IMG/VR virus record: IMGVR_UViG_3300020728_000012
Span: 1 to 41,461 of that record
Length of the DNA: 41,461 nucleotides
Strand: one strand, 5' to 3'
Source: a virus
Shown here: in pieces, positions 1,592-21,593 of the stretch
How positions within the stretch are numbered: position 1 is the stretch's first letter
How the letters are laid out: each line of letters begins with the position of its first letter
Translations under genes and position numbers: made by a program
The notes under the pieces: generated by a model
Told to the model about the DNA's origin: nothing
What the model saw: only the letters and a program-made list of their open reading frames with translations
The model's database searches: none

Positions 1592-2816
1592 ATTCTTCAA
1601 AGCGTCCATTCTCCCAATCCCATAGTAGCTCTGCTTCTGCTGGTCCACTGTTACGACTTCTATCAATCCGAAGGATTCTAGAACTGTCGTCTTCTTCATC
1701 CTGGCGCTGTAGTGCTAGGACTACGTCTGAGTCTTGCTCAAACGAAGAAGAGTAACCGATGGCACTTGACGTAACTCGACCCTTGGTCATCTTGCTTGTG
1801 AGGACCTGGGTAGTCTGGATTACCGGTATGTTGTACTTCTGAGCAATGCGCTTCATGCCCTGAGTAATGTGCTGGAGGTTGCTTGGACTACCACGACGTG
1901 TTTCACCACGGCTGGCTTCCTCATCCTCCATAAGATAAACACCATCAACGAACAGTGCATCAGGACGATGCTTCTCTACCTTAGCAATAAGAGATGTTAG
2001 GTTCATTGCCTGGACGGAGTCAGTTAATAGAAACGGATGCATCTCTGAGTTTCTCTTAAGCCAAGCTTCATAGCGCTCTTCTTCATCAGGATTAAGAGCA
2101 CCACGAATAAGTCTGCTTTGAGCGATGTGAGCACGCATAGAGTCATAACGATGCTGTTGCTCTATGTTAGTCATTTCAAAAGATTGGAACATAGGTACAA
2201 AGCCATCTTCATGGAGGTTAGCTGCTACCTGCAAAGCAAGAACAGATTTACCTGTCTTTGGTGGAGCAATGATAGTGACTAGCTGTCCACCCTGCAGCCC
2301 ACCAGTTGCTAGGTCAATGGTGTTGAACCCACTGGCCATACCGATCAAGCCGTTAGGACGTAGCTTAATGTTTCTATAATCCTCAAGGCGTTGCTCTGTG
2401 TTGCTTGACAGGTTAACGTCATGGCTTTCAGAACCACCGGTAAGGGCAACCTTATGTATACCCGAGGTAAGGATCTCTGTGATTACGTCATTGTCTGCTA
2501 CCTCTTTAATGGAGGAACCAGCTGCTTGGACAGTATCAATCAGGGTCTGTCGATTGCGATAAGCAATCAACTGATCCAGTAAGTAACTAACTGAGTCGTC
2601 TACTTTTAGAAGGCGGTAGGTAGGATAGTTATCTAGCAGAGTTACTGCTGTAGGCACTTCTCCATATTTTGAAAAGTGATTACGAATAAACTTCCATATT
2701 TGCTGGTTCTCTTCGACAAAGAACCAATCATCTTTTACACCACGTTCTAATAGGTAGCCGAGATCACGATCACGGATGACCTTAGAGATTAACCGTACTT
2801 CGTTGTCCGCTGCCAT
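1569..2816 (-). CDS. dnaB: DnaB-type replicative helicase
   Basis: 415 aa. Hexameric 5'-3' replicative helicase, acting with the loader and primase encoded nearby. An N-terminal helical domain (about 1-110) is followed by a RecA-like ATPase. Walker A is APPKTGKS at 184-191, where the usual first glycine is alanine. Walker B is LFVDG around 288-292, and a later QTTQV segment resembles motif H3. It is slightly shorter than bacterial DnaB (about 450-470 aa). ATG lies directly after the preceding stop, with GAGGG upstream. Its 3' end overlaps whiB. Confidence 0.92.
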   Translation of the reverse strand: MAADNEVRLISKVIRDRDLGYLLERGVKDDWFFVEENQQIWKFIRNHFSKYGEVPTAVTLLDNYPTYRLLKVDDSVSYLLDQLIAYRNRQTLIDTVQAAGSSIKEVADNDVITEILTSGIHKVALTGGSESHDVNLSSNTEQRLEDYRNIKLRPNGLIGMASGFNTIDLATGGLQGGQLVTIIAPPKTGKSVLALQVAANLHEDGFVPMFQSFEMTNIEQQHRYDSMRAHIAQSRLIRGALNPDEEERYEAWLKRNSEMHPFLLTDSVQAMNLTSLIAKVEKHRPDALFVDGVYLMEDEEASRGETRRGSPSNLQHITQGMKRIAQKYNIPVIQTTQVLTSKMTKGRVTSSAIGYSSSFEQDSDVVLALQRQDEEDDSSRILRIDRSRNSGPAEAELLWDWENGRFEEYGNPFAV

Positions 2817-3221
2817 TTACACCCTCTCGATCTCCATGTACCAATGCCCGTATGCTAATGATCTATCTGGTATATCAATTACATTTTTTACTTCTGGTCT
2901 ATACGGGAGCTCTCCCACAAGATCGGAATAAGTTCTATATGCAGTTACGTAGTTAAACGGATTGGTACCTAGATTGTCAAGATCTTCTTCAATCTCTTTC
3001 ATCTCTTTTTTGGTATACCCGAACCCTGCTAACTCTAAGCGATACTCATGCTTCTCTGCAAATCGCCAGAACCTGGCGAGCTTGACCCTGTCGTACTCTA
3101 CTTCTTCAGTGTTCCTGACGATTCCAAGAACCCGAGTAATAGCAGGACGCCTACTAAGGATGCAGTCCAAAGTAACCACAATCCTCTGCGGTACTTCATT
3201 TGATATGTCCCCCCCTTGCAC
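2817..3221 (-). CDS. conserved-looking protein of unknown function in the replication block
   Basis: 134 aa from GTG at 3219-3221, which lies 1 base after the upstream TAA, so translation is probably coupled. No clear Shine-Dalgarno precedes the GTG; a run of seven G falls just inside the frame. The segment RIVVTLDCIL near residue 13 looks like a beta strand ending in an acidic residue, vaguely as in HAD or nuclease folds, but no full motif set is present. The middle is rich in charged helix (ARFWRFAEKHEYRLELAGF). There are no cysteine motifs or membrane segments. I do not recognise the family. A nested out-of-frame membrane ORF (3098-3199) complicates the start assignment. Confidence 0.7.
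   Translation of the reverse strand: MQGGDISNEVPQRIVVTLDCILSRRPAITRVLGIVRNTEEVEYDRVKLARFWRFAEKHEYRLELAGFGYTKKEMKEIEEDLDNLGTNPFNYVTAYRTYSDLVGELPYRPEVKNVIDIPDRSLAYGHWYMEIERV
3098..3199 (-). CDS. possible nested 33-aa single-pass membrane peptide
   Basis: Out of frame inside the preceding entry, an ATG at 3197-3199 opens a 33-aa frame beginning MKYRRGLWLLWTASLVG and continuing with a hydrophobic stretch to LLLLGFLE, then a short polar tail. It has the shape of a single transmembrane helix with a positively charged N-terminus. A seven-G run lies 9 bases upstream of this ATG, a better ribosome-binding site than the one available to the longer frame. Whether both frames, or only the longer one, are translated cannot be decided here. 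Chance overlap is a real alternative. Confidence 0.3.
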   Translation of the reverse strand: MKYRRGLWLLWTASLVGVLLLLGFLESSGTLKK

Positions 3222-13714: not shown

Positions 13715-15501
13715 TACTTCTTACCCTTCACTGAAGCCTTAGTTGTAGCAACCTTTGGAACAACTGCATTGGCTGTAGCAGCTGCAGTAGTTGCATCGGT
13801 TGATCCAAATACAGGAATACGCATAGCTTGAATATCTACCGTAGTTAACATAGGGACCATGTTTGCTGTAAACATAACGTGGTTAACATTTATAGAGCTA
13901 AGAGAGATCTTGTAACGAAGGTTGTCATGGAATCTAATCCAACATGGGATACCCGTGATATATCCAAAGTCTGAGCTTTTATCATTCATGGTCAATAACT
14001 CGCCTGAAGCAGCTTGCGGATCACCGTTAAGCAGTCTGTATAAGAACTCTAGGTCGTATTCTGTTCCACGATTGATTAAACCGGCAACCTCTGTAGGTGT
14101 AAGAGTTCTAGGATAGTTCTTTGAATAAGAACCGGTTATTCCTGAAAGCTCTGTCATATCTGCAATTCGGTTTAAGTAAAGAGTAAAGCTGACTGTGGTA
14201 TTACCACCAATAGTATTGGCTGGATCTGCAGATGCTTGGGTCCAGTCAATTGGACTAGTAACAGTAGTGTTGTAAGAAATAGTTGTAGGGTTATAAGCAA
14301 ACCTAAACTTATAGGCATTGGGGCTTTGAGACTTCCAGTTGATATTGTTTGGATCAGAGAAGAAGTATCCTAAATTATTGTTTAGATCAGCATAGCCAGC
14401 AAATCCAGTTAAACGCTTTGTAAGCGGCACATCTCTAGTTAAAAAATGATTAGGAGGATTAGTAATGAACTTATCATCCATTGTATTATTGGCATAGTTA
14501 TTTATATTGGGGTTTGTTGTAGTGGTTCCAGCAGAACTAGGTCCGGTGGGATTTGTAGCGGGGCTAGGGCTACAGTTAAGCTGAGATGTAATATAGGCTT
14601 TAGCTGCTTTAAATGAGGAACCAGCATGATTAAGGCTTACTAACTCAGAGTTAGGGTTAAGGGTAGTTGGGCTTGAGAGCTTGTTTCCATATCCATCCCA
14701 AGCATCTACGTAAAAGTTATAGAAACTATTTATAGGTGGGGTAGTAGAGTACTCATACCGCATAGTAAGCCAACGCTTATTGCAAGGATCGTACCCACCA
14801 ATACCTCCATACATAGCTAAAGCATCGAGGACTTCTTGAGGAGCTTGTCCGGTATTCTTTCCACCTGCAGAAAAGGTTACTGGCTTTGGGGTGTAGAAAA
14901 GCTGAGACGTTGGAACATCAATATTGCTATTAGTGCTATTTTCATCAACATAAGTATTAGCTTTTAATACAACACCCACATCAGGAATTCCAATGTAACC
15001 GGTTGCATTAGGAAGGGGAACTACCTCTATATAAAACGCATCACCATGAAATGTGCTGCGGTATGCACCACGTTGAAGAGTTGCTGTAGGGTCTACCGGG
15101 ATAGCGGTAGAGGAAAGATCATCGTTTCCATGCACTGTATTAACAGCGTAGATCTTTGCTACTTTTTTTAATCCGGCAATCCAGGTGTCAAGGCTTTCCC
15201 CAGACGTATTTGGTATGGAAATAACATCATTAGTAAGAGAGGTTCCGTTAGTTGCCAGATCGTTCATCTGTGAGGTTGTTAAAGCAGTCGTTTGATTTGG
15301 GTATGTAATGCCGCTCCAAACACGGATGACATACATTACATACTGCCCGTTGTTTACAGTTCCATTAGTTAATGGCAACCATCCGCCATTAGATCCAAAG
15401 TACTTAAACGCAGGGTTGGAGGAAGTAATGGGGGTAACCGTAATAGCCGGGTCACTAACAAACGCTTCAATAGTATAAAAGGCTTTTGTATCGTATGACA
15501 T
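13714..15501 (-). CDS. tail tube-end / baseplate adaptor with C-terminal CIS-tube-like domain
   Basis: 595 aa. The N-terminal 380 residues are polar and beta-rich without clear motifs. The C-terminal part (from YKFRFAYNPTTISYNTTVTSP, through FTLYLNRIADM, LEFLYRLLNG, then WIRFHDNLRYKISLSSINVNH) resembles the tube-like domain that in other contractile injection systems is fused to or precedes LysM, linking the tube to the hub. Ends with a lysine-rich tail. Position between tape measure and LysM protein supports this. The N-terminal extension may be surface-exposed. Confidence 0.65.
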   Translation of the reverse strand: MSYDTKAFYTIEAFVSDPAITVTPITSSNPAFKYFGSNGGWLPLTNGTVNNGQYVMYVIRVWSGITYPNQTTALTTSQMNDLATNGTSLTNDVISIPNTSGESLDTWIAGLKKVAKIYAVNTVHGNDDLSSTAIPVDPTATLQRGAYRSTFHGDAFYIEVVPLPNATGYIGIPDVGVVLKANTYVDENSTNSNIDVPTSQLFYTPKPVTFSAGGKNTGQAPQEVLDALAMYGGIGGYDPCNKRWLTMRYEYSTTPPINSFYNFYVDAWDGYGNKLSSPTTLNPNSELVSLNHAGSSFKAAKAYITSQLNCSPSPATNPTGPSSAGTTTTNPNINNYANNTMDDKFITNPPNHFLTRDVPLTKRLTGFAGYADLNNNLGYFFSDPNNINWKSQSPNAYKFRFAYNPTTISYNTTVTSPIDWTQASADPANTIGGNTTVSFTLYLNRIADMTELSGITGSYSKNYPRTLTPTEVAGLINRGTEYDLEFLYRLLNGDPQAASGELLTMNDKSSDFGYITGIPCWIRFHDNLRYKISLSSINVNHVMFTANMVPMLTTVDIQAMRIPVFGSTDATTAAATANAVVPKVATTKASVKGKK

Positions 15502-18404
15502 TAGACGCTCGCAATTCCCTTACGTCGTAGCTGCTGATGCAGCTGCCTGTTAAATTCATTCACCATATCGTTAGCACCCTGAACGCTCGCCGTTGCAATA
15601 TTTACATTCATCTGAACTTTAATGTTTACCTGCTGATTAGCATTAAAGGATGTGCTTGTAGGCATTCCATACGCACCCTTAGATGCACCCACTTCAGCAA
15701 GAGACATGCTTGGAGCAGAACTGCCGCCCACACCGTATCCATCTGACTTAGCTGTTAGCTGAGCGTCATAAAGGTATTTAGAGAACTCTCCGCCGGTATA
15801 GGTAGACCAGGCATTCCAATTAGTTCCGTGGTTACTCTTATCCCAAGCAGCTTTAATATTATACGCTGGGTTTTGAAGTCTACTTGCGTCTCTATCTGGA
15901 TCGTTCCATTTCTTCCAATCCTTTAAAGAACGAATCTGGAATAAGCCAACGCTTGGACCCCACTTGCTATCTTCAAGCTTTACATCACCAATAGCATTTG
16001 GTCGACCTTGAGACTCTGCAAGTGAAACAGCAAATGCAGTAGAAAGGGCTTTTCCACGAAATCCCTGTGCATACAGCATCCTCATGTATGCCCCTCGGCT
16101 GCCTCCAGGCATGCCCTTTACATCTCCAGGTACAAGATTGATGGTGCTATCAATCAATGGGGTTCCATCTGTTGCAGAAAGCTTTGAGCTGTTACCCAAG
16201 GTATTTAACATGTCGCTGTAGTTGAGTGGGTTACCTGCCATCATCGCACTAGCTAGCTGCGATGGTAGTCCTACAGAGTTTAAGATTCCTGGATCAGAGA
16301 TAGTGTCAATACTGACTGATTTATTATTAGCACCCTTAGCTGGGGCACCCATGGCTGTAGGAAGCGGTGGTGAAAACTTAGAGCTTCCTGCTCCAATATA
16401 TTTAGATGGATCAACACGGCCCTGTGCACCGACGCCACCGTTATCACGAAGTTCAAAGTGAAGATGCGGACCAGTTGAATTACCAGCTCCAGGGGTTCCT
16501 GGCTTACCACCAGAGAGTCCGATCTCTTCACCCTTACGAATCTTCTGTCCAGAGTGAACCTTGACCTGAGAAAGGTGGGCATAGAGAGTTGATTTCTTAC
16601 CGTGGGTAATGATTACGTAATTTCCGTAATCCTTATCTAGGCCTGTATAGGAAACAACGCCATCAGCCGCAGCATGTACTGGTGTGCGGGGTTGAACGGC
16701 GTAATCAATACCTGTATGTGAAGTCCACTTAGATGGGTTGTGGGGATCACGGCGCTTACCGAAGCCTGAGCTTACGGCGTGCTTATCTGTGGGGTAGTTC
16801 ATCTCTGGGCTGCCACTAGATGCGGCTGTACCCATTCCTGGGGCTGCATTACCGCCCTGGAATAATCCCTGGATTAGACCCGCACCTGCTCCTAAAACGG
16901 CTCCTATGGCCGTTCCAGGGCCCGGAAGGATGCTTCCTATGGAAGCGCCTATAAGAGCGTCTATGCCCATGTCAGCGGCCGTGTTACCGACCTTTTTGAC
17001 TGTCTTATTCTTGGCTAATCCAGTGTTATCCAGACCGCCCTTAAGAAGACTTGCCAAGGCAGCCAAGCCGGCTAGTCCTCCGGCTTTACCTAAACGTCCC
17101 GCAATTCCAGCCCCGCCCTTGGCTGTACCGACTGTGTATCCCTGACCTGGAAAGTTTTCTGCAGCAGCAATCGGATTGTTCTGAGAACTAAGCATCTGTG
17201 ATAGAGCACGGTTTTGAAGAGCTCCATAACCAAAGCTCATACCTGCCCCAGCTAATGTGGAGATGGTTGCTCCAGGACCACCAAGTCCTGGGAAGGTTTC
17301 AAGAACGCCTTTAAGCTTTCCAAATAGATCGACAACTCCAGGAAGGGTATTGGCTAATCCAGCCATGCCGTTATTAATCGAGGCAGCTGTGTTAAGGGAG
17401 GTGTTGTATCCAGATACAAGTCCGCCGCTCATTGCGGTGGTTACATTAGATGTACTTGTATTGTAATTAAACTGAGCGGCTAAAGGACTTCCTGCCCCAA
17501 CCTTCATTAGTCCAAGAGCAGATGTAGATCCGCTTAGATCTGATTTACTTAAACCAGAACCCTTTGATGCACGAGCAACAATACCTGCTTGAATGCTCGC
17601 CATGAGGTCTGGGTTGCCGCCAGCAATCTGTGCAATAGTGTTATAGCCCTTGCTGTTAGGGTTGTAAACCATCTGAGCTTGATCAAGGGTTACAGTCTTA
17701 CCACTATATAAAAAGTTATATACACCATTGATGATGTCGTTGATTGGCTTAAGAGAGCCATCAGGATTACGAGCGGTCACACCAACTCGTAAGAAGTTCA
17801 TGCCGTTAATTCCGGAGAGTCCAGCAGCTACTTGCTGATTGCTTCCTCCAGTAAGTGCGCTAAGTCCACCTACAGCCCCCATAATATTTTTGGAGCTCAT
17901 GGTGTTGGCTAAATAACCACCACTATATGCAGCAGTGGCCATCGCTTGAATAGGGCCGGTAGCACTAGTGGCTCCGTTACCTACGGCTTTATTAGCCGCT
18001 TGCATTGCCTGCATAGCAGACATGCCACTAAGGCCTGCAAATGTATCTGCAGTCATACGCTGGGTTACAGCGTTCATCGTTGAAGGCATCATGCCCATAC
18101 CGATGCTACCTACTGTTGCTACAGCGGCAATTCCACCTGCAACCTTTTCAGCAGTTGTATATGGGACATTCGGCATAGTTCCCATGCCGATGTTTCCACT
18201 ACCAGTGTTGTTACCATTTTTACCAACACTGCCTAGGGACTTAGCAATATTGTTTGCAGACTTTTCCATCTGCAACATCAGCTTTAAGCTGACATTAAAG
18301 CCCTTGTTTACTTTATTAAAGAAAGAGTCAAGACCAGCGTTTGAGCCCAGGGCAAGTGCACCCCCCGAGTCGGAAGGCATCTGCATATTGCCGTATGCGG
18401 CCAT
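15501..18404 (-). CDS. tape measure protein with M23 peptidase and lytic transglycosylase domains
   Basis: 967 aa. The N-terminal half is alanine/glycine-rich with hydrophobic segments (about 90-110, and GAGAGLIQGLFQGG near 510), as usual for tape measures that set tail length. Residues about 540-670 form an M23 (LytM-type) zinc endopeptidase: HTGID (HxxxD) near 563 and HLHFE (HxH) near 647. Residues about 775-880 form a lysozyme-like transglycosylase (SLAESQGRPNAIG, then SVGLFQIRS). Two enzymes against the two bond types of peptidoglycan imply local wall opening during DNA entry. ATG overlaps the stop of the chaperone extension. Confidence 0.92.
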   Translation of the reverse strand: MAAYGNMQMPSDSGGALALGSNAGLDSFFNKVNKGFNVSLKLMLQMEKSANNIAKSLGSVGKNGNNTGSGNIGMGTMPNVPYTTAEKVAGGIAAVATVGSIGMGMMPSTMNAVTQRMTADTFAGLSGMSAMQAMQAANKAVGNGATSATGPIQAMATAAYSGGYLANTMSSKNIMGAVGGLSALTGGSNQQVAAGLSGINGMNFLRVGVTARNPDGSLKPINDIINGVYNFLYSGKTVTLDQAQMVYNPNSKGYNTIAQIAGGNPDLMASIQAGIVARASKGSGLSKSDLSGSTSALGLMKVGAGSPLAAQFNYNTSTSNVTTAMSGGLVSGYNTSLNTAASINNGMAGLANTLPGVVDLFGKLKGVLETFPGLGGPGATISTLAGAGMSFGYGALQNRALSQMLSSQNNPIAAAENFPGQGYTVGTAKGGAGIAGRLGKAGGLAGLAALASLLKGGLDNTGLAKNKTVKKVGNTAADMGIDALIGASIGSILPGPGTAIGAVLGAGAGLIQGLFQGGNAAPGMGTAASSGSPEMNYPTDKHAVSSGFGKRRDPHNPSKWTSHTGIDYAVQPRTPVHAAADGVVSYTGLDKDYGNYVIITHGKKSTLYAHLSQVKVHSGQKIRKGEEIGLSGGKPGTPGAGNSTGPHLHFELRDNGGVGAQGRVDPSKYIGAGSSKFSPPLPTAMGAPAKGANNKSVSIDTISDPGILNSVGLPSQLASAMMAGNPLNYSDMLNTLGNSSKLSATDGTPLIDSTINLVPGDVKGMPGGSRGAYMRMLYAQGFRGKALSTAFAVSLAESQGRPNAIGDVKLEDSKWGPSVGLFQIRSLKDWKKWNDPDRDASRLQNPAYNIKAAWDKSNHGTNWNAWSTYTGGEFSKYLYDAQLTAKSDGYGVGGSSAPSMSLAEVGASKGAYGMPTSTSFNANQQVNIKVQMNVNIATASVQGANDMVNEFNRQLHQQLRRKGIASV

Positions 18405-18556
18405 TACTTCACCCTAGGTCTCTCTATGGCTTTGTTAATCCAAAGCATTCTTTCTCTGACAGAGAGATTGCGGATCTCAGTTAAAGTCCAACCAGGATAA
18501 TTCTGAGCCAGAATATCGTAGGTCTGGATTACTAGATCGTAATCAATCTCACTCTT
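18404..18556 (-). CDS. frameshift-expressed C-terminal extension of tail assembly chaperone
   Basis: A 50-codon frame beginning KSEIDYDLVIQTYD and ending AIERPRVK, with the motif NYPGWTLTEIRNLSVRERMLWI typical of second products of tail chaperone pairs. It has no ATG, GTG or TTG before residue 37 of this stretch, and the frame upstream is closed by TAA within the chaperone gene. It therefore cannot start alone and is most simply read by +1 frameshifting from the 270-aa protein (fusion about 318 aa). It ends overlapping the tape measure ATG, where such extensions usually lie. Confidence 0.78.
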   Translation of the reverse strand, partial: KSEIDYDLVIQTYDILAQNYPGWTLTEIRNLSVRERMLWINKAIERPRVK

Positions 18557-18563
18557 GAAACAA
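18549..18563 (-). promoter_or_regulatory. probable +1 frameshift site (UUG UUU CAA GAG UGA)
   Basis: On the coding strand the chaperone ends TTG TTT CAA GAG TGA. At TTT C, tRNA-Phe can move +1 from UUU to UUC with full pairing, entering the downstream frame two codons before the stop. UUU-C is a known +1-prone context. A -2 shift would reach the same frame but lacks an obvious slippery run. Confidence 0.6.
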
Positions 18564-19361
18564 CTCTGCCAACGTAAGTGGCATCGGGACCTCCGACCCG
18601 CAGAACTTACATGGCACTGTTACTTCGCTGAGTTGTGGACCTGGGTTGCGATCTGATATAGCCTTAAGGATATCCCGGCGGTCTTTGATACTGAGCTGAC
18701 GAACCTGCTCCGTATCCATGACAGGGAGACCATTAATGGTCTTAACGCAGCTCTTGAGTACGAGGGTGTCTAATTCAGCTGCGGTCTTATTGGATGAGTT
18801 TACTATAGCTTTCTGTGTAATACCGTTTGGAAGAGATACTTCTACCTCACCAATCTTGCACTTAAGAGTGAAAAGGCGATCACCGTCTAGCTTTTTAACC
18901 TTAACGTCTTTGTTAAGATCAATAGATACTTCTTGAACGTCTGAAGAACATGGGCAGATATTTCCTTCAAAATTAATCTCATCACCAAAGGTGACACGAC
19001 GAATCGTAAGGAGGATAAGCTCACGGTCTCCAGCTAGTAACATATCGAGTGTATCCCGATCTACTGCTTTTTCACCAAGCTTTACTACTGCTCGTTCTAG
19101 GATGGCAAGGAGGGCTTTGCCTGTATCTCCAGCTTTTGCAATAGCTTCTTCATCTGCTCCGTTTAGTTCACGAACTTCTGCAGTTCCAATAAATCCATCA
19201 AATGGATCCATTAATCCTGCAGCCAACTCTACGTGAGTATCAGGAGGCGTCTCAACACGCTTCTTAGCGGGTTTAGCTACCGCCTCCTGAGCCTCTAATG
19301 CTTCTGCGACCATCTTATTCGCAAGTTGTGGATTATTAATTGCACTTACTTCGTTAGTCAT
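18549..19361 (-). CDS. tail assembly chaperone, T4 gp26/baseplate-protein-like, zinc-binding
   Basis: 270 aa. A core around LLAGDRELILLTIRRVTFGDEI followed by a CxC (136/138) and a later CKFCGSE (251/254) matches the T4-type baseplate/gp26-like chaperone family, where the cysteines make a zinc site. The N-terminal 45 residues are a charged, alanine/lysine-rich extension. Its position between tail tube and tape measure is that of tail assembly chaperones, and the zero-frame product would be the short form. ATG with AAGG 8 bases upstream. A longer form is probably made by frameshift at its last codons. Confidence 0.82.
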   Translation of the reverse strand: MTNEVSAINNPQLANKMVAEALEAQEAVAKPAKKRVETPPDTHVELAAGLMDPFDGFIGTAEVRELNGADEEAIAKAGDTGKALLAILERAVVKLGEKAVDRDTLDMLLAGDRELILLTIRRVTFGDEINFEGNICPCSSDVQEVSIDLNKDVKVKKLDGDRLFTLKCKIGEVEVSLPNGITQKAIVNSSNKTAAELDTLVLKSCVKTINGLPVMDTEQVRQLSIKDRRDILKAISDRNPGPQLSEVTVPCKFCGSEVPMPLTLAELFQE

Positions 19362-19386: not shown

Positions 19387-20022
19387 TTAAGCTGAAGGAA
19401 GGGTCTGTGCTCCACCTGCAGTTGTATAGTCCTGAGCGTATGAAACGTCAAAGCCTTCATGAACAACCTGAATTTCTTCAACCATGAGGGTGTTAGCACC
19501 GGCATCAAGGTTGCTGTAGCTGAGGTTTGTGATCCATGCGTTATAGACTTTGAAGCGCAGTGATACATGCTGATCTGTTGGATTTCCAGCAACTCCTCCA
19601 TTAAGGTTAGTTGTGCCCTGTGGGTTAGGGTGGCTGAGTACTGCGATGTCAATTGTGCAACGGAAATCTGCGCCAATTCCTGTTGTAGCATCTCCACTGA
19701 GTACTGTAAACAAACGCTTCATCCACATTGGGTTTGCATCCTGTGCAAGCATTACACCCTTAGAAAAGCTAATAGGTGTAAAAGAAGTCTGACCAGGAAT
19801 CTGGTGGAAGTTCGTGTTATATCCACCTTCACGGTAAGCGATTGCTTCAGTAGCAATACTCAAACCAGAAGCTGATACGAATCCCATAGTTGCCCAGGCC
19901 TTATTTGCAGATGCCCATGTAGAGTCTTGTGCATGGGGGCTAAACGTAACCAAGAACTTAAAGTTACGAACTGGATCCGTAGCAAGTGTGCTAAACGGAT
20001 TAGTGATTGGACCGTTAGTCAT
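19387..20022 (-). CDS. tail tube protein (T4 gp19-like)
   Basis: 211 aa. Pattern DPVRNFKFLVTF near residue 17, FVSASGLSIATEAIAYREGGYNT, then GQTSFTPISFSKGV is the usual tail-tube signature, and the C-terminus (LRFKVYNAWITNLSYSNLDAGANTLMVEEIQVVHEGF) completes the tube fold. It forms the inner tube inside the sheath, stacking hexameric rings whose number is set by the tape measure. Directly follows the sheath gene. Confidence 0.93.
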   Translation of the reverse strand: MTNGPITNPFSTLATDPVRNFKFLVTFSPHAQDSTWASANKAWATMGFVSASGLSIATEAIAYREGGYNTNFHQIPGQTSFTPISFSKGVMLAQDANPMWMKRLFTVLSGDATTGIGADFRCTIDIAVLSHPNPQGTTNLNGGVAGNPTDQHVSLRFKVYNAWITNLSYSNLDAGANTLMVEEIQVVHEGFDVSYAQDYTTAGGAQTLPSA

Positions 20023-20036
20023 TTTTAGTTATCTCC

Positions 20037-21593
20037 TTACGCCGTAGCGTTTCCGGTAAGTTGTCCCAACTTGATGACAACAAACTCTGCTGGGTATTCA
20101 ATAGCTACGCCTATTTCGACATTTACAATGCCGTTCTGGATATCTGCATCGCTGTTATTAGTAGCGTTACAAGTTACATAAAAGGCCTGGCTTGGATCTG
20201 TTCCACGAAGTCCACCCTGCTGCCAATATCCACGAAGGAAGGTAGAGAGTGAGGTTGTGATGCGTCCCCATAGAATTGAGTCATTATTCTCAAACAGAGC
20301 AAATGCGCTGCGCTGTTCAAGCTCTGTCTTCAAGTACATGATAGAACGACGAACGTTGATGTAGCGGTTAGATGTGGTGTTGTTCATGGTACGAGCGCCC
20401 ATGATTACGATTCCACTACCTGGGATCTGACGGATAGCATTGATTGGTTCTGTACCAGTATTCAATGTATCAAGGTCAGAGTTAGAAAGCTGGGTCTGTG
20501 TTGCAACAGCCAGTGCAATTCGGTTGCTGAATCCTGCTGGTGCTTTAAAGACACCACGTGCTGAATCGGTAGCAATGTACTGGCCGATTGCTGCAGCTCC
20601 AGGAGCTTGATTACGAAGTGCGCCACGAGCAGCCTTTGTTGTATCTGGAATACTGATCCAAGGATAGTAGAGGGCTGCAACTTCACCAGCAGAAGAACCT
20701 GCAAATGGTGATGTAGCTTTAAGGTCAGAAGCATACTGCTTAGCATCTGATACTGCAAGTCCTGATGGAACGTCACAGACTACAAAACAGTTTTCACGAC
20801 CGGCTGCATATGCAACAGCATCTGCCTGAAGCTGTAGAGACAATGTGCGATCTCCTGAGCTTCCACCTGAGGTGTACTGGTAAGCAGCCTGAGGAATGTT
20901 AAATACTAATGGATTCTGAATAGGATCAAAGTTAGTATAAACAGCCTGATAGTTAGCACGTGAAGGTGCTGATCCATCAAGACCACCTGTAAGTGCATGC
21001 TGTACTCCGTCAGCTGTAGGGTTGTTTCCTGGAGCAACTGTTGCAGAGTGCTCGTCAGTTACAACTACATACGCTGAAGATGCATTGATGTATGAGATTG
21101 CGTAGCGTGGATCAGTGCTTGACATTGAAAGATCAGTAAACTGCTCAATAAGAGTTGAAGTTCCACCGATCAATTCATATACGTAGAGAGCAAAACGACC
21201 AGCAGCACCGGTATTGATTACCTGAACTGAGAGTGAGTTGCCCCATGAACCAGCATTAGATGCAGTTACTAGAAGGGTTGACAAAGATGAGCTGTCTGTC
21301 AAGACAACTGATGAGGCTGCGGATCCTGAACCTAGGACACGCTGAACGTAAGCTTGGTTACCGCCATTAGCAAAAAAGTTATAGACAGCCCAAGTGGTTG
21401 GATAAGCATCTTGTACATCTCCGAAGCTATCAACAAACTTCTTCCATGAACGTACGAGTACTGGTGCTGAGGACTTTCCTGAAGGCAATGCTCCAAGGAA
21501 AGCGCCAACAGCAGAGCCATTGTCAGTTAGTTCAACTGTCTGGCTTACTGGCACTTCTTGTACAAAGACGCCGGGTCTACTAAATGTAGCCAT
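20037..21593 (-). CDS. tail sheath protein
   Basis: 518 aa. The N-terminus FSRPGVFVQEV is the sheath hallmark, followed by GSAVGAFLGALPSG and PVLVRSWKKFVDSFGD. The C-terminal conserved domain includes GARTMNNTTSNRYINVRRSIMYLKTELEQ and ends VEIGVAIEYPAEFVVIKLGQ. It forms the contractile outer sheath. It is preceded by a strong AAGGAG Shine-Dalgarno, fitting high expression. This gene alone identifies the phage as myovirus-type. Confidence 0.97.
   Translation of the reverse strand: MATFSRPGVFVQEVPVSQTVELTDNGSAVGAFLGALPSGKSSAPVLVRSWKKFVDSFGDVQDAYPTTWAVYNFFANGGNQAYVQRVLGSGSAASSVVLTDSSSLSTLLVTASNAGSWGNSLSVQVINTGAAGRFALYVYELIGGTSTLIEQFTDLSMSSTDPRYAISYINASSAYVVVTDEHSATVAPGNNPTADGVQHALTGGLDGSAPSRANYQAVYTNFDPIQNPLVFNIPQAAYQYTSGGSSGDRTLSLQLQADAVAYAAGRENCFVVCDVPSGLAVSDAKQYASDLKATSPFAGSSAGEVAALYYPWISIPDTTKAARGALRNQAPGAAAIGQYIATDSARGVFKAPAGFSNRIALAVATQTQLSNSDLDTLNTGTEPINAIRQIPGSGIVIMGARTMNNTTSNRYINVRRSIMYLKTELEQRSAFALFENNDSILWGRITTSLSTFLRGYWQQGGLRGTDPSQAFYVTCNATNNSDADIQNGIVNVEIGVAIEYPAEFVVIKLGQLTGNATA

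Follow-up and report, generated by a model that had tools for sequence, protein, structure and literature searches.

A −1 frameshift in tail assembly chaperone genes is widely conserved, as Xu, Hendrix, and Duda reportedly found in 2004. We describe a gene pair on the minus strand of IMGVR_UViG_3300020728_000012, a virus record analyzed over all of its 41,461 bases (the window, hereafter); from sequence comparison, we put at about 0.93 the probability that it is a dual-product tail assembly chaperone gene whose long form would be made by a +1 slip at UUU-C. The excerpted text of a 2016 review calls the −1 chaperone frameshift of lambda G/GT widely conserved "except T4" (PMC5009743). Compared with lambda G/GT, the shift proposed here is +1 at UUU-Y, not −1 at a heptamer, and the first product is of the T4 gp26 type (PF12322).

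Forward shifts have been put forward for haloarchaeal viruses. The same review excerpt considers HSTV-2 "very likely +1" (PMC5009743), and a +1 shift at TTT-CGC, at the same gene position, is proposed for HF1-like haloarchaeal myoviruses in the available part of PMC7230728. Slip motif, proposed direction, and gene position are shared between the HF1-like viruses and the window gene. HF1 (locus L261, about 2570-3040) reads AAG TTT CGC AGA TAG; its first open reading frame (ORF) encodes 156 amino acids (aa) with no Cys at all, unlike the window gene, homology between the two being judged by inspection only. Its chaperone gene thus differs in length and make-up yet has the same TTT-CGC +1 site, which may therefore have more than one origin. 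A +1 shift at UUU-C in chaperone genes had thus already been proposed, so that a sequence-only reading of the window, which held that +1 would be unusual for this gene pair, is right for tail chaperones in general but was preceded by the HF1-like proposal (PMC7230728).

T4 has two genes, the paralogs gp26 and gp51, where the window has one gene with a +1 shift; a gp26-type first domain is common to both. The T4 paralogy (BLASTP 1.7e-6 over gp26 residues 18-162; gp51 is longer) fits the title of a 2022 paper by Vladimirov, Gautam, and Davidson (Virology 566:9), according to which T4-like chaperones are reportedly made by a mechanism other than frameshifting. Poly-T −1 signals are given as known in T4-like chaperone genes in an excerpt that cites Vladimirov 2022, and the same excerpt describes, for Vandenendeviridae and Andersonviridae, a −1 shift of the chaperone gene at GTTTTT (PMC12846349). 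As here, these two families have a chaperone pair with a poly-U slip near the end and a second half annotated apart; their shift is −1, unlike the +1 proposed for the window. Bacillus phage 0305phi8-36 has a two-gene form without frameshift, according to the part of PMC2147016 available.

The slip motif itself has a eukaryotic counterpart. At UCC_UUU_CGU of influenza A PA-X, the +1 product was identified by mass spectrometry and P-site slippage on UUU_C was favored; the excerpted text also predicts a class of +1 sites consisting of UUU_C with restricted neighbors (PMC3498833). The UUU_C P site and the +1 direction are shared with the window, although PA-X involves a eukaryotic ribosome and an unrelated gene. 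The window also differs from the UUU_CGN class represented by PA-X and the HF1-like viruses in that its A site is CAA; two relatives in bacterial genomes have CTC and CCG. More generally, PRFect counts 350 forward sites among its positive cases in the portion of its text available (PMC10885494).

In the window, the zero-frame ORF (19361..18549, −) ends GCA GAG TTG TTT CAA GAG TGA, and the open stretch of the +1 frame spans 18619 to 18404 (71 codons, stop to stop). From the upstream stop to the twelfth codon past the slip, this second frame contains no ATG, GTG, or TTG. The features singled out by the sequence-only reading (a 50-codon +1 frame, an upstream stop, no usable start, and an overlap reading TTG TTT CAA GAG TGA) are thereby all confirmed. 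As computed from the sequence, a slip at TTT-C would extend the protein by 50 residues (KSEIDYDLV...RPRVK) to 318 aa and create the junction ELFKSEI. That junction had been named as the peptide to look for; the +1 slip does predict it, but trypsin would cleave it behind the K, which leaves ...LTLAELFK as the diagnostic tryptic end, versus the zero-frame ...LTLAELFQE. The predicted peptide ends for the window are ...PMPLTLAELFK (+1), ...PMPLTLAELFFK (−2), and ...PMPLTLAELFQE (zero frame); for the Streptomyces phage BRock, the tryptic peptide after a +1 slip would end ...VPLNVGILFANSNYK, its zero-frame counterpart being ...VPLNVGILFR.

We propose that most ribosomes would translate the 270-aa gp26-type protein up to its UGA. 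In the remainder, the P-site tRNA-Phe (anticodon GAA) would slide one base forward, from UUU to UUC, and translation would continue in the +1 frame for 50 residues to yield the 318-aa protein, which would carry a three-helix domain in addition. If lambda G and GT are a guide, the short form may coat the tape measure and the long form may bring tail tube subunits. We infer the slip itself, its efficiency, the P-site re-pairing, and the roles of both products.

Close relatives were collected by tblastn against a phage collection, which returned seven records (BRock twice) including BRock, LuckySocke, Alone3, GiJojo, pSt2308, and a 484-kb uncultured phage, and by an IMG/VR profile scan, from which the best 80 loci of a longer list (46-67% identical) were taken. 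The window, five Streptomyces phages, and the 80 IMG/VR loci make up group A (86 sequences). Two loci (L059 and L062) run off their contigs, leaving 84 complete sequences, of which 39 are non-redundant at a 90% identity threshold. All 84 have TTT as the slip codon, followed by C in 74 and T in 10, as do 39/39 of the non-redundant set (C 33, T 6), against a TTT:TTC ratio of 155:43 at the other Phe codons of those 39 genes. The C at the slip base anticipated by the sequence-only reading is thus the rule, and U also occurs, at UUU-stop (10/84). The A-site codon is free to vary: CGC 10, CAG 8, CGT 7, CAA 4, TGA 3, TAA 3, CGG 2, and CGA 2 in the non-redundant set, and CGN 53, CAR 21, and stop 10 (TAG among them) in the 84.

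The zero-frame stop follows the slip codon after 0 to 3 codons in the non-redundant sequences; as the frame ends right after TTT in 6 of the 39, no residue is needed behind Phe, whereas UUU-Y is retained. In 37/39, an upstream stop closes the +1 frame such that its overlap with the zero frame, counted to the end of the zero-frame stop, is only 14-29 nucleotides (nt) long, and this confines the shift to a few codons (the exceptions are the window, at 71 nt, and L005, at 74 nt). From 15 codons before to 2 after the slip, all conserved codon columns vary synonymously, the only exceptions being TTT and the GAG codon within a GGAGG farther upstream. Synonymous variation is seen in conserved Leu, Thr, Pro, and Ala columns around the site and, in the second frame, in Leu, Arg, Gly, and Tyr columns; the five phages BRock, LuckySocke, Alone3, GiJojo, and pSt2308 keep CTG TTT CGC/CAG. 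A conserved slippery site in the overlap and a second ORF without a conserved start of its own are found in the window and in group A alike, and the shift is +1 in the window and in every one of the 84 complete sequences, unlike the usual −1 of chaperones. The frames are directly fused in none of the 84 (the two cut sequences are undecided), and no separate second-frame start is common to them. With TTT and the +1 relation fixed while neighboring codons vary synonymously, the comparison supports the earlier proposal of a +1 slip of tRNA-Phe at UUU-C near the stop.

One scan of bacterial genome contigs gave five further relatives: two from Streptomyces, one each from Saccharothrix and Terracoccus, and one on a contig labeled Proteobacteria metagenome-assembled genome. 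In each, TTT-C is present and the +1 frame stays open through a similar second domain, which the profiles recognize too; the sites are TTT CGC (three times), TTT CTC, and TTT CCG. TTT makes up 4-13% of the Phe codons in long ORFs of these loci and 11-29% in four of the Streptomyces phages.

The second frame is under coding constraint, as judged from its substitution pattern, which is that of a translated frame. Across 86 pairs with at least 65% nucleotide identity, 1105, 719, and 1876 substitutions fall on +1 codon positions 1, 2, and 3, and codons that differ by a single base are synonymous in 1076 cases and non-synonymous in 513. As a control, we examined 92 other gene ends at the loci of 38 non-redundant relatives (window left out); the +1 frame stays open for at least 120 nt past the stop in three and the −1 frame in four, and none of the 184 frames matches the second-domain profiles, whereas 84/84 group A sequences match them in +1 (the profiles having been seeded from these loci). 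Taken together, the sequence comparison establishes two coding frames, a fixed frame relation, a conserved slip site, and a place between the tube and tape-measure-position genes.

The second domain is predicted to form three helices (mean predicted local distance difference test, pLDDT, 90.1), and its assignment as a T-type domain is moderately supported. The window's second domain matches PHROG_6416 tail protein (E 0.002) but has no match to PF06528, the P2 GpE family, in either profile search. The P2 GpE profile likewise found nothing in four virus records, the window's close relatives and T4 alike; T4 gp51 gave weak matches to our second-domain profiles (E 0.026 and 0.073). Contractile injection systems may carry a pair of this kind, with DUF6760 as the second member; one weak match to DUF6760 (E 0.18) was obtained, and the papers searched do not mention this family. 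PDB sequence searches with the profiles returned nothing or chance-level matches. Separately, MAFFT placed a zero-frame stretch of relatives on the second-frame domain, and window positions 18725-18636 and 18496-18407 (−) read EQVRQLSIKDRRDILKAIS and TEIRNLSVRERMLWINKAI; an internal repeat, mimicry, or chance could each account for this.

The first product is probably a tail assembly chaperone, as judged from family and model matches. The 270-aa protein passes the PF12322 (T4_baseplate) cut-off (32.8 bits versus 24.5) and matches the PHROG_150 baseplate hub (7.4e-8). Its AlphaFold model, made with the two halves modeled apart, has a mean pLDDT of 85.5; the best PDB match is 2ob9, the tail assembly chaperone of HK97 (probability 0.99 and E 0.05 in Foldseek), which aligns over 93 residues with Z 7.0 and a root mean square deviation of 3.5, a Z below 8 being such that it may reflect a mere common arrangement. 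The next structural match (Z 4.6) is a protein of unknown function from a phage-inducible chromosomal island-like element. Among viral predicted structures, T4-like baseplate hub assembly proteins and SP-15 were matched.

To follow the direction of the shift more widely, we added ten distant records and two further profile scans, taking the best 80 loci of a longer list from each (three of the second run off their contigs). Together with group A and the five loci from bacterial genomes, the set comes to 256 usable loci of 261, near-copies and one phage present twice included. Profile placement finds the second domain in a shifted frame in 255 of the 256 (+1 in 191, −1 in 64), frame 0 being best in none; the sole exception is L174, which extends to the end of its contig. 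Within the last 54 nt of the first frame, every one of the 191 +1 loci has either UUU with C or U behind it or CUU-U, 79 of them reading TTT TTT TGG. These sites were called as the last such codon, without a shuffle control, and in L088 the call CGC CTT TGA is a mislabel of the real site, ATC TTT CGC. Among the −1 loci, 63/64 carry a canonical X XXY YYZ heptamer in the same stretch (T TTT TTC 59, T TTT TTT 2, A AAT TTC 1, and A AAT TTT 1), and L093 has none; the −1 group takes in PA5oct, Atu_ph07, and RAS14.

On a FastTree phylogeny of 153 gp26-type proteins, shift direction needs 2 changes versus a shuffled mean of 33.5, and well-supported branches, on a tree with long branches, force 1; by this sequence tree, direction is clustered and has changed at least once. 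As the slip site is present in every close relative whose sequence covers it, the unusual +1 frameshift seems to be kept over a wide phage group. A few loci cut across the pattern: L125 has a −1 shift at A AAT TTC although the rows nearest to it are +1, and L125, L093, L250, L252, and L254 have −1 second domains despite matching the profile from the second scan, most of whose loci are +1 (a match documented for L125, L093, L250, and L254). These five are candidates for switches in slip direction.

The second frame might instead be a separate small gene with its own start codon. Public records are annotated accordingly, with a separate hypothetical protein in BRock, LuckySocke, Alone3, and GiJojo, and the second half left out in pSt2308 (loci L003, L004, L005, L006, and L008). 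An ATG, GTG, or TTG does lie within 12 codons past the slip in 19 of the 39 non-redundant group A sequences, and two-gene solutions exist elsewhere, in the gp26/gp51 paralogs of T4 and the Bacillus phage cited above. The window has no such codon, however, and neither do 20/39 in the stretch searched; where starts are present, they lie at least seven codons past the slip, within the first predicted helix, and their use would remove an invariant Tyr. Nor does a separate gene give any reason for the invariant UUU-Y, and we regard it as very unlikely. A −2 slip, as used by phage Mu, would reach the same frame by identical arithmetic and would be told apart by one extra Phe (...LAELFFK versus ...LAELFK for +1). 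At UUG-UUU-C, tRNA-Phe moved two bases back would face UGU with a second-position mismatch, whereas the conserved UUU-Y is a requirement of a +1 slip; we regard −2 as even less likely than a separate gene.

Slippage by RNA polymerase as the source of the second product draws on the distant relatives, many of which have runs of at least seven T, and on the difference in direction between branches, a feature that the excerpt of PMC3711429 links to transcriptional slippage in transposases. At the site in the window and the 84 group A sequences, the run is three T plus C, or four T at UUU-stop. Such runs of three to four T are too short for RNA polymerase slippage, which we consider more improbable still. 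A broken gene or a sequencing error, which could produce a shifted frame in any single contig, has a negligible probability: the +1 relation recurs in 84/84 complete sequences, five of them from phages with named hosts, and such an error conflicts with the coding constraint on the second frame.

Several points weigh against the reading we prefer, a dual-product chaperone gene with a +1 slip at UUU-C. Support for the long product comes from sequence comparison, and with an overlap of 71 nt the window by itself cannot localize the slip. The 39 non-redundant sequences share kinship, so that 39/39 does not amount to 39 independent trials; most of these genes, moreover, use TTT more often than TTC for Phe (155:43, as given above). 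Near-copies make up many of the 256 loci, and the second-domain profiles were seeded from the same loci, which makes the 255/256 count partly circular, although the gene-end control is clean. The HK97 chaperone match is moderate. For the second domain, PF06528 is matched by 5 of 21 members (E up to 0.1, best 1.8e-4) and unmatched by the other 16, the single bit score given is 19.1 against a cut-off of 23, and a fold search with the model returned nothing useful.

Upstream of the slip site, a GGAGG begins 34 nt before the slip codon in 36/39 non-redundant group A sequences and lies 20-40 nt upstream in 79/84. Its Glu codon is GAG in 39/39, although GAA outnumbers GAG in the same genes (523:289); the preceding codon encodes eight different residues, yet its third base is G in 36/39. 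The three exceptions are Streptomyces phages, which keep GAGGT. By these codon counts, GGAGG is kept at the nucleotide (synonymous) level. Counting unique contexts 12-50 nt upstream across the wider set, GGAGG is found with +1 shifts in 51/55 of group A, 5/5 genome loci, 46/75 of the second scan (mainly at −31, −34, and −25), 8/13 of the third scan, and 3/6 distant records, and with −1 shifts in 1/48, 0/1, and 0/3 (1/52 in total). Given the small number of direction changes on the tree, shared ancestry or base composition may account for this association.

To our knowledge, few genes besides prfB undergo bacterial +1 programmed frameshifting. prfB resembles the present site in direction and in its U-rich P-site codon (CUU_UGA), and UUU stands directly before a stop in 10/84 of group A. 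In prfB, a Shine-Dalgarno sequence lies about 3 nt before the slip codon and a stop occupies the A site, whereas here 29 nt separate GGAGG from the slip and the window A site is CAA; a prfB-like geometry is ruled out by this spacing (GGAGG at −34). We know of no stimulator geometry that includes such spacing, and for that reason claim no mechanism. It is conceivable that a Shine-Dalgarno core, in most cases 25-34 nt upstream of the slip and too distant for the prfB or dnaX geometry, acts in the +1 members as a stimulator of a new, long-range kind; the wider joint reading that contains this claim is a tentative one, which we judge somewhat less likely than not.

Three further explanations were considered and rejected. 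An internal start at GGAGG was rejected, there being no conserved start codon at initiation distance: the codon eight before the slip is mostly CTT, CTG, or CTA (the window itself has ATG there), so that GGAGG does not resemble a usual ribosome binding site. Rarity of the A-site codon was also set aside as a sole cause, as that codon varies among relatives; CAA occurs at 14.2 per 1000 codons in the window. The 92 nt after the slip in the window (18551-18460, −) fold better than shuffles (z −3.40). Among 12 relatives, L010, L011, and L032 have z from −3.2 to −4.0 and the other nine from −2.24 to +0.61 (11/12 below zero), while a consensus fold of 19 sequences has 14 pairs, one with a compensatory change. 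Downstream RNA structure was rejected as the stimulator, as this mild structural leaning yields no element common to relatives.

On the minus strand of the window, the genes run sheath, gp19-type tube, chaperone pair, and a large M23/lysozyme gene at the tape measure position (Table 1); the order sheath, tube, pair, large gene also holds in the five Streptomyces phages. At 18406-18402 (−), TAATG joins the second-frame stop to the ATG of the tape-measure-position gene, an overlap that suggests translational coupling. The identical 270-aa protein is encoded on two more metagenome contigs, one of 103,932 bases, which lie outside the group A counts.

Table 1. Features of the chaperone locus in the window
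Feature	Position	Strand	Basis
Tail sheath	20037..21593	−	PF17482 6e-7; PHROG_23 2e-46
Tail tube, gp19 type (upstream gene)	19387..20022	−	PF06841 1.7e-19
Zero-frame product (short form), T4 gp26 type, 270 aa, probable tail assembly chaperone	18549..19361	−	PF12322; PHROG_150; AlphaFold model
Stop codon closing the +1 frame upstream	18620..18622	−	Stop-to-stop ORF 18404-18619
Shine-Dalgarno core GGAGG, first base 34 nt before the slip codon	18590..18594	−	Position kept in 36/39 non-redundant group A sequences
Putative slip site UUU-C (TTT 18560-18558, C 18557)	18557..18560	−	TTT-Y in 84/84 complete group A sequences; TTT-C in 5/5 bacterial-genome relatives
Zero-frame stop TGA, two codons past the slip codon	18549..18551	−	Sequence
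Putative T-type domain, the +1-frame C-terminal part of the long form; 50 aa and a stop	18404..18556	−	Relatives; codon pattern; three-helix model
Tape-measure-position gene, 967 aa, M23 peptidase and lysozyme-like domains	15501..18404	−	PF01551 5.5e-27; PF18896 2.9e-23

In the result listings of searches in open-licence PubMed Central, neither +1 nor UUU-Y frameshifting was reported for gp26-type genes or for BRock-type Streptomyces phages, and the upstream GGAGG was likewise absent. Four points were thus not found in the papers searched: that the shift is conserved in gp26-type genes, that it tolerates many A-site codons, that its direction has changed within the family, and that GGAGG lies upstream. 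The natural A-site variants (four Arg codons, two Gln codons, and three stops) around a fixed UUU-Y make the sequence rules of +1 slippage directly testable, and the upstream GGAGG offers a ready hypothesis for what sets frameshift efficiency. For the family, the findings support the view that the absence of a chaperone frameshift in T4 does not extend to gp26-type genes at large.

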